DNA from: Elusimicrobiota bacterium
GTDB taxonomy: Bacteria > Elusimicrobiota > Elusimicrobia > Elusimicrobiales > UBA9959
Assembly (NCBI GenBank): GCA_030651035.1
Contig: JAUSCK010000183.1
Location: 1 to 41,203 of the forward strand
Direction of reading: 5' to 3'
DNA length: 41,203 bases
Shown: positions 4,763 through 7,600 of the stretch, piece by piece
Numbering within the stretch: position 1 is the stretch's first letter
Layout of the letters: each line of letters opens with the position of its first letter
Program-made: the position numbers and the translations under genes
The notes under the pieces: model-generated
What the model was told of the DNA's origin: nothing
The model's input: the letters and a program-made list of their open reading frames with translations, nothing else
The model's database searches: none

Positions 4763-4838
4763 GCCTAGCGGTTGGATCAGCCGCCGCCACCACGGAGAGA
4801 CGACCCCGAATGCAGTCGGCTTAATCCGATCGTTAGGC
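4763..4838 (-). other. attC recombination site of the cassette
   Basis: 76 bp. On the minus strand it opens with GCCTAAC (R'', fits RYYYAAC) and ends with GCTAGGC (R', one base off GTTRRRY). The arms GATCGGATTAAGCCG and CGGCTGATCCAACC pair over their length with one extra base in the 5' arm, as expected for the extrahelical bases of a real attC. The middle is non-palindromic. The gene's TAA (4833-4835) lies inside R''. Confidence 0.75.
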
Positions 4839-5273
4839 GTCAAAAATGTGATGCCCACACTTGTCGCACAATCCAGTCTTTGTTACTTGCCGACATTTCC
4901 CACTGCCTTCACAGTTTGTGCACAGGCCAGGGACGTGCGGCCTAAGGTATTCGCCTGTATGGTTATTCAAGATGTGCCCGCATGCTGGGCATTGCATGCC
5001 CGATTCCTTGAGCCAGCGGCGCGAGAAGAAGTACTCCAGAGAATAGATCGTCGCTAACGTGAGCGTACAGAGGCCGACGATGCGGAGCGCTAGGAACTGA
5101 AACGGTTTCCGCTCCGCTGGCATAAGAAGGAATGGTGAGATGCAAAGGAAGACTGTGGCGAAGATGAGAACCAGGATCATTCCGAAGTTTACCGAAAAGT
5201 AGAAACTCCAGAGGATGTTTTCGCTTCGGTGCTCGGCGGCCGACCATTTTGTCGCGAATTCCTCTTTTGTCAT
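4833..5273 (-). CDS. Cassette-encoded two-helix membrane protein with C-terminal zinc ribbons
   Basis: 146 aa; family not recognised. Two hydrophobic helices (about residues 22-50 and 60-82) are followed by a Cys-rich cytosolic tail: C95-P-A-C98, C118-T-N-C121, C127 and C136-D-K-C139-GHH. These pairs should bind one or two zinc ions. The start codon lies 5 nt inside the cassette from the recombination point, and the stop lies within attC, so the gene fills the cassette. Cassettes normally lack their own promoter, so expression may depend on neighbouring transcription; the minus-strand genes upstream run in the same direction. The function is unknown, as for most cassette proteins. Confidence 0.75.
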   Translation of the reverse strand: MTKEEFATKWSAAEHRSENILWSFYFSVNFGMILVLIFATVFLCISPFLLMPAERKPFQFLALRIVGLCTLTLATIYSLEYFFSRRWLKESGMQCPACGHILNNHTGEYLRPHVPGLCTNCEGSGKCRQVTKTGLCDKCGHHIFDA

Positions 5274-5438
5274 TGTACGCCTAACAGATGAATATATAGT
5301 TCAGTATAACACGACTTGCCCAGCCCAGTGGCTACCATTAGGGATTGATACGTAAATGCTCAGGTAATTTAACCATTTCTTGACCGCAGCGGTCTAATTT
5401 TTCGCTTTGCTGCCATCAGATGAAACAATCCCTCGTAA

Positions 5439-6892: not shown

Positions 6893-7600
6893 CTATAACA
6901 CATCTAACAGCCAGATAAGAAACACCACTATGAGTGCAATTGCTATGGCGTACCGCTTGAACACCCATCCAACATGGACCTTCCAGCAAGCGTCGCACCA
7001 GACCTGCGTGGCCGGGACCGAAAAGCCATGCCGCAGGTGACCGGGCTTACCGCACTCGTCGCACAACCCGCAATACCCTTTGGGAACACCGTTCTGTTCA
7101 AGAACTCTGGGATCAAGCACGCCGCAATAACACCCGCGCGTGTTTCGCACAACGATGCGCACCTCACCGGTGAAATCCGAAGCAGAGGCTTCCTCGGTCA
7201 TTATCTGCAATACATGCTCTGGCTTCCCACCCCCCGTCCCCGCGCCTATTAGCGGTAAAGCGATGGAGCGGAAACCGTGCTGTTCCGCCAAAGCCAGCGC
7301 ATTGCGTGTTGACGCTCTAATAGATTCCTCGGACGAGCGCCAAAGCATATTTATCCCGGCAACGTGGATGATCGCCTTGAACGGCAGCTTCCCCGGCTTG
7401 GTTAGCACAGCGCCGCCCAAAGGAATAGGCCCAATCCGCCCCAACTCGCGGAATGGTTGATACCCGCCCTGCTTCTTAATAGCGCCGGAAACCCCCTGCG
7501 GCAGTAATAGCCACCAGGGAATAATATTCCTGTTCCAAGCGTTGACGATACAGTCAACCTTCTGCCCCAGCAGGTTCCCCTCAATGATTTCAACCTTCAT
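6893..7600 (-). CDS. Macrodomain fused to a zinc ribbon and C-terminal membrane anchor
   Basis: 235 aa. Residues 1-155 form a macrodomain: IIEGNLLGQKVDCIVNAWN (5-23), the loop QGVSGAIKKQGG (35-46), AIIHVAG (76-82) and SIALPLIGAGTGGG (112-125). These are the ADP-ribose-binding and catalytic loops of Appr-1''-processing enzymes, though the usual N-A-A-N reads N-A-W-N. A zinc ribbon follows (C177, C180, C183 and C202, C205), then one membrane helix at 216-233 ending in LLDVL. The protein would sit on the cytosolic face of the membrane as a tail-anchored ADP-ribose reader or hydrolase. The likely ribosome site AGGAG belongs to the dispersed motif at 7610-7639 and is rather far (about 15 nt) from the ATG. 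Confidence 0.8.
   Translation of the reverse strand: MKVEIIEGNLLGQKVDCIVNAWNRNIIPWWLLLPQGVSGAIKKQGGYQPFRELGRIGPIPLGGAVLTKPGKLPFKAIIHVAGINMLWRSSEESIRASTRNALALAEQHGFRSIALPLIGAGTGGGKPEHVLQIMTEEASASDFTGEVRIVVRNTRGCYCGVLDPRVLEQNGVPKGYCGLCDECGKPGHLRHGFSVPATQVWCDACWKVHVGWVFKRYAIAIALIVVFLIWLLDVL

Follow-up and report, generated by a model that had tools for sequence, protein, structure and literature searches.

A single open reading frame of 146 codons stands on the minus strand of a 41,203-nucleotide stretch of DNA from an Elusimicrobiota bacterium (the whole of this stretch is called the window below), between a short core sequence upstream and an attC-like site at its 3' end. A preliminary description, made from the DNA letters alone, had taken the segment 4763-5285 for an integron gene cassette, and its coordinates and anatomy proved correct throughout. 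The heptamer GTTAGGC, described as lying five bases before the start codon, is present on the minus strand at 5279-5285, where the spacer GTACA separates it from the ATG at 5273. One ORF follows (5273-4833), in the same orientation as both the 5' core and the attC, and the 76-bp site has the pairing arms, the extra base and the stop codon inside R'' that had been reported. The features are as follows.

4769..5284, minus strand: cassette as it would circularise (516 bp), bounded by the TT in the 5' core and the G in R', with the G|TT crossover rule applied to the junctions
5279..5285, minus strand: 5' core GTTAGGC, of which G is target-derived and TTAGGC cassette-derived; exact complement of R''
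4833..5273, minus strand: cassette ORF (146 aa), with helices predicted at residues 3-50 and 58-91, then a Cys-rich C-terminus
4763..4838, minus strand: attC (76 bp), covariance model 34.6 bits, E=2.2e-6; bottom-strand pfold 0.70
4832..4838, minus strand: R'' GCCTAAC, with the stop codon TAA inside
about 4817..4826, minus strand: L'' GATTAAGCCG, with one extrahelical base (T, about 4823), by alignment to the covariance model
about 4775..4783, minus strand: L' CGGCTGATC, by alignment to the covariance model
4763..4769, minus strand: R' GCTAGGC, of which G 4769 is cassette-derived and CTAGGC (4763-4768) is expected to be target-derived
5286..5315, minus strand: left junction flank, attI-like, GTCGTGTTATACTGAACTATATATTCATCT before G|TT; 20/28 identity to the flank of the lone cassette in genome G336
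5303-5311, minus strand: TGTTATACT, possible extended -10, within the left junction flank

The attC assignment was examined with a purpose-built covariance model, derived from 29 attC sites of same-phylum and class 1 integrons with the window site left out and pairing imposed on the R and L arms. The score of 34.6 bits (E=2.2e-6) was obtained on the minus strand in the 41-kb window; the plus-strand score of the same site was 15.3 bits, and the next unrelated match in the window reached 8.4. The site was the only model match on the contig. A 65-bp upstream candidate at 5279-5343, already considered unconvincing in the preliminary description, gave no match to the model and was rejected as an attC. 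The 31 other genomes of the genus served as an empirical control (about 2.8 Mb per genome, the full model being run on the 136 highest-ranked prefilter candidates of each), and in these nothing scored above 21 bits. The family RF01725 was rejected as a model of attC, being SAM-I-IV.

The exact 76-base bottom strand was folded as a single strand, with the R arms both forced to pair and left unforced. It formed the attC hairpin with a pfold of 0.70, a value within the range of known sites and towards the better end of the 25 that were compared. Its central spacer is able to pair fully; the spacer of a classical attC is unpaired. Across 66 distinct attC sites, in an alignment that had been fitted to the covariance model, 11 of 15 arm pairs were changed on both sides and the covariation score was reached by none of 500 shuffles. 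A crude palindrome-plus-core scan was not significant by itself, since 6 of 40 shuffled windows scored as high, and the attC claim therefore rests on sequence, structure and anatomy together; the weight is carried by the sequence of the L boxes, by a 5' core that complements R'' exactly and by the placement of the ORF. The shuffled windows are what speaks for a chance inverted repeat behind an ordinary gene. That reading is most improbable, and it is already strongly contradicted by the model score with the genus as control, by L boxes that match those of the phylum attC, by the exactly complementary 5' core and by the canonical bottom-strand fold. The lone sequence at 4763-5285 is a genuine integron gene cassette.

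The preliminary description had given the cargo two helices and Cys4-type zinc ribbons, with no known function, and the protein proved to be without relatives: none turned up in searches of 295 genomes of the phylum, of plasmids, of viral contigs and of genome contigs, the sole viral-contig match being 12 residues long and taken as chance. There was no significant family or PDB match, and the zinc-ribbon matches were weak. On sequence comparison, the product is an ORFan. An AlphaFold model of the 146-residue protein (mean pLDDT 64, low confidence) shows a pair of long helices followed by a C-terminal part that is loose; as judged from its sequence, the cargo is most likely a small membrane protein of two helices whose tail lies in the cytosol and binds zinc. 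Loci with weak matches to the protein (L012-L022) were set aside, as no attC is present there and the one inspected, L018, spans unrelated genes. Elsewhere in the window, among the genes without family matches, 6893-7600 encodes a protein that has a macro domain, a segment rich in Cys and, at the C-terminus, a hydrophobic stretch.

R' GCTAGGC departs from GTTRRRY by one mismatch. The mismatch had been recorded in the preliminary description and stands, but the suggestion made there that the site may be decaying does not follow. The integron crossover is G|TT and the junction requirement has been reported as GNT (PMC10127599), with which the GCT of the window R' is compatible. Because the outer six bases of R' come from the neighbour or target, GCTAGGC need not mean decay; a later T-to-C mutation is also possible, and in the recombining bottom strand such a change amounts to a G-T wobble only. 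The origin of these bases, and the finding that only 40 of 72 array R' match GTTRRRY strictly, are the reasons for which this match was not treated as a strict defining feature. T occupies position 2 of R' in 65 of 66 array rows, which is the reason for allowing such a mutation, and GCT is found at one other lone site, L172. Lone R' of the phylum fit GTTRRRY less often than array R' do (3/14 vs 40/72, p=0.04). In most of the phylum cassettes checked, the 5' core is the exact complement of the cassette's own R''; several lone sites yielded no such core. Three lone cassettes illustrate the rule: L158 (R'' CGCTAAC, 5' core GTTAGCG, R' GTTAACA), L175 (R'' GCCGAAC, 5' core GTTCGGC, R' GTTACGC) and L174 (R'' GCCTAAC, 5' core GTTAGGC, R' GTTATGA).

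The region had been described as lacking an integrase, and this extends to the genome: no intI lies near the cassette, and a search of the genome for intI returned only Xer-like matches, the best at 101 bits against a cut-off of 265 (TIGR02249). The assembly comprises 320 contigs and is 96% complete, so an intI may have been missed. The best of these matches, a tyrosine recombinase on contig C237, was rejected as an IntI, being far below the cut-off and showing common integrase domains only in Pfam; the ORF beside it resembles an IS91-type transposase. At L009:451-1374, on the edge of a short contig, an XerC-like recombinase was observed beside an IS91-type-transposase-like ORF. Within the genus, all 32 genomes lack an intI that passes the cut-off. 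In the phylum, an integron integrase exceeds the NCBIfam cut-off in 30 of 341 genomes, one of them (G109) in the same family as the window genome, and integrons that look functional, with intI and arrays, are present. Sites of attC type were found in 46 of the 341 genomes, of which 25 have no IntI over the cut-off, many of the assemblies being incomplete.

The cassette had also been called isolated. This holds for the contig, where its attC is the only one, but not for the genome, where a second attC was found, nor for the phylum at large. The signature RYCTAACNATYSGATTNWGCCGAC, spanning R'' to L'', was found in eight stretches among all contigs of 84,980 species genomes, and all eight are from Elusimicrobiota, so this attC type belongs to that phylum; as the signature was drawn from the window site and its nearest attC, the result measures lineage restriction and not discovery. 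A literature search found no paper on integrons in Elusimicrobiota.

The second attC of the genome lies at C295:27647-27711 (L116:9648-9712) and scored 36.7 bits with the covariance model. It has an imperfect R'' and folds less well (pfold 0.055). The genes on either side, for an amidohydrolase and an aminotransferase, are 10 bp apart in the relative G281 but are separated here by about 2.6 kb of extra DNA, within which the site is placed. Its R' is GTTAGGG, and ten bases further on is the ATG of a 385-residue ORF that has no family match and no attC of its own.

The sequence to the left of the window cassette resembles an attI site. The 28 bases next to the junction are identical at 20 positions to the flank of the lone cassette in G336, which is the best value of a similarity that is moderate. 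Sixteen attI and lone-cassette flanks were taken as a panel, against which the window junction ranked first of 1493 GTT sites in sampled DNA of its own genome. With the G336 flank removed from the panel, three GTT sites reached its value, and with the ten intI-adjacent attI alone, 2 of the 1493 did so, the window junction included (18/28, to the attI of G210). A profile of attI alone placed the junction 22nd of 879. Since the flank comparison was made after the likeness had been noticed, and given the profile rank, the junction is described as attI-like and not as attI; almost no other GTT in the DNA sampled from its genome appears as close to such flanks. The flank probably supplies a promoter reading into the cassette gene, for which TGTTATACT is the candidate element, although a consensus promoter scan in which a -35 was required did not list it.

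An empty version of the site was sought by synteny, and none was found. The flanks have no counterpart in the 31 congeners, in which the intergenic DNA is absent, and the nearest T2SSF homologue is 35% identical. Within the 2-11 kb around the cassette, few genes have relatives in the genus, and the GC content of the flank is 44% against 58% for the window.

Arrangements of this kind have been named before. A single attC site lacking an integron integrase is termed a SALIN (PMC12690207), and single-attC CALIN form a category of IntegronFinder 2 (PMC9024848). The window has the sole attC of its 41-kb contig in a genome with no IntI over the cut-off, and in having one attC, one cassette and an intI that is neither nearby nor detectable in the genome it is like these elements. 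A complete integron, with intI, attI and array, was found neither in the window nor in the genome. SALIN are already a known kind; what is new is the host lineage, from a phylum for which no integron paper was found, the attI-like left junction, which is outside the SALIN definition, and the occurrence in relatives of attI-plus-promoter sites without a detected intI. The chromosomal integrons of Elusimicrobiota (for example CP096137.1 in G292, L087, L090, L100-L102, L105 and L110) share with the window an attC family with L'' GATT..GCCGAC and L' GGCGGCTGATC, the 5' core rule and a stop codon that is often in R'', but they have intI and arrays, and the window has neither. The attC of class 1 integrons (aadA1 and its neighbours, NC_004998.1, L111) have the same RYYYAAC/GTTRRRY cores, extra L'' base and bottom-strand fold; the L boxes and cargo of the window differ from theirs, and there is no resistance gene in the window.

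The best explanation for these observations is that the window holds a lone SALIN cassette that was inserted, most likely, at an attI-like chromosomal site by an IntI that is now absent. An IntI no longer in the genome would have recombined the folded bottom-strand attC with the chromosomal site, the crossover in the target falling at G|TT (or G|CT), and the uninterrupted target would have read TTCATCTG|CTAGGCCC. Such an insertion would account for a 5' core that matches R'' exactly and for an outer half of R' that is target sequence. The cassette itself consists of one promoterless gene and one attC. As the attC hairpin still looks foldable, excision by an IntI provided in trans is conceivable in principle, perhaps with lower efficiency owing to the GCT. 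From the features described we infer insertion by IntI, expression and remobilisation alike.

Three other histories were considered. The cassette could be what is left of a larger integron, with attI and one cassette surviving the deletion of intI and the other cassettes. The attI-like left flank, the frequency in the phylum of attC without intI (25 of the 46 attC-bearing genomes) and the second attC on C295, which precedes the start of an ORF that has no attC, are all in keeping with this. No fragment of intI and no other attC was found near the site, however, and with intI in 0 of the 32 genus genomes and an attC above 21 bits in 0 of the 31 others, the genus gives no sign of an ancestral integron; a remnant is a possible but doubtful source. 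The second alternative is an insertion at a random secondary site, attG-like and needing only GNT, in place of an attI-like one. Cassettes are reported to enter non-attI sites in experiments and plasmids (Loot 2024 and Recchia and Hall 1995, cited in PMC12901181, PMC12444791 and PMC10127599), and such cases have features in common with the window: a non-integron locus, a GNT junction and an outer R' half taken from the target. The GCT of R' and the poorer fit of lone R' to GTTRRRY agree with this. Compared with those cases, the window differs in a target whose left side resembles attI and in a host without intI, and the left flank of the cassette is nearer to known attI and lone-cassette flanks than are nearly all sampled GTT sites of its own genome, so that a random site is unlikely.

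The third history, in which attI and cassette arrived together on one block of DNA from an integron host by other means (transformation or illegitimate recombination), is improbable. It would fit the scarcity, in the surrounding 2-11 kb, of genes with relatives in the genus and the lower GC content of the flank, but no boundaries of a foreign block were found and the contig bears housekeeping genes. Insertion by an IntI now absent is the reading retained here, and cassettes with intact-looking attC persist in a lineage without a detectable integrase.

Comparable lone cassettes are present in other genomes of the phylum. In that of G306 (L174:4178-4808), the attC overlaps an rRNA methyltransferase-like gene at the gene's 3' end, and the left flank is 90% identical over 40 nt to the intI-adjacent attI of the same genome. 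In family f7, each of seven genomes has one site of the form GGTCAGYCTAATN4-5GTT (L203-L209, L158, L164, L169, L175). The pattern was found nowhere else among 235 genomes of the class, and the reversed pattern used as control gave one match. These sites have about 78 bp in common, including a TACAAT-like -10 hexamer near -55, and no intI is adjacent to those inspected. Between loci, no homology was found among the upstream proteins. An attC follows within 1.5 kb downstream in five of the seven, and further on in a sixth (G240); at L204, possibly an empty site, there is no attC over the same 1.5 kb.

The seven single-copy f7 sites with their common 78 bp, and the G306 flank that copies its own attI, are the basis for a tentative wider reading. 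Elusimicrobiota may have attI-like, promoter-bearing landing sites without an adjacent intI. Each genome would hold a single such site, at a locus unrelated to those in other genomes, and the site would capture one cassette or a few through an integrase supplied in trans; the window would then be a diverged case in a genome without intI. If such sites are real platforms, landing pads and integrase would be separable and the integron would not necessarily be one linked unit, and the way in which integron distribution is counted would change.

A further lone cassette is found in G109, the same-family genome that has an integrase (L173:3745-4254). Its ORF is nucleotidyltransferase-like, no clear 5' core was found, and the sec operon genes on either side of it are tgt and yajC. 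The tgt-yajC gap is 831 bp in G109, against 41-368 bp in 10 of the 11 other family genomes in which both genes were found and 607 bp in the eleventh. A CALIN adjoining secD/secF has been reported in Xanthomonas (PMC12444791).
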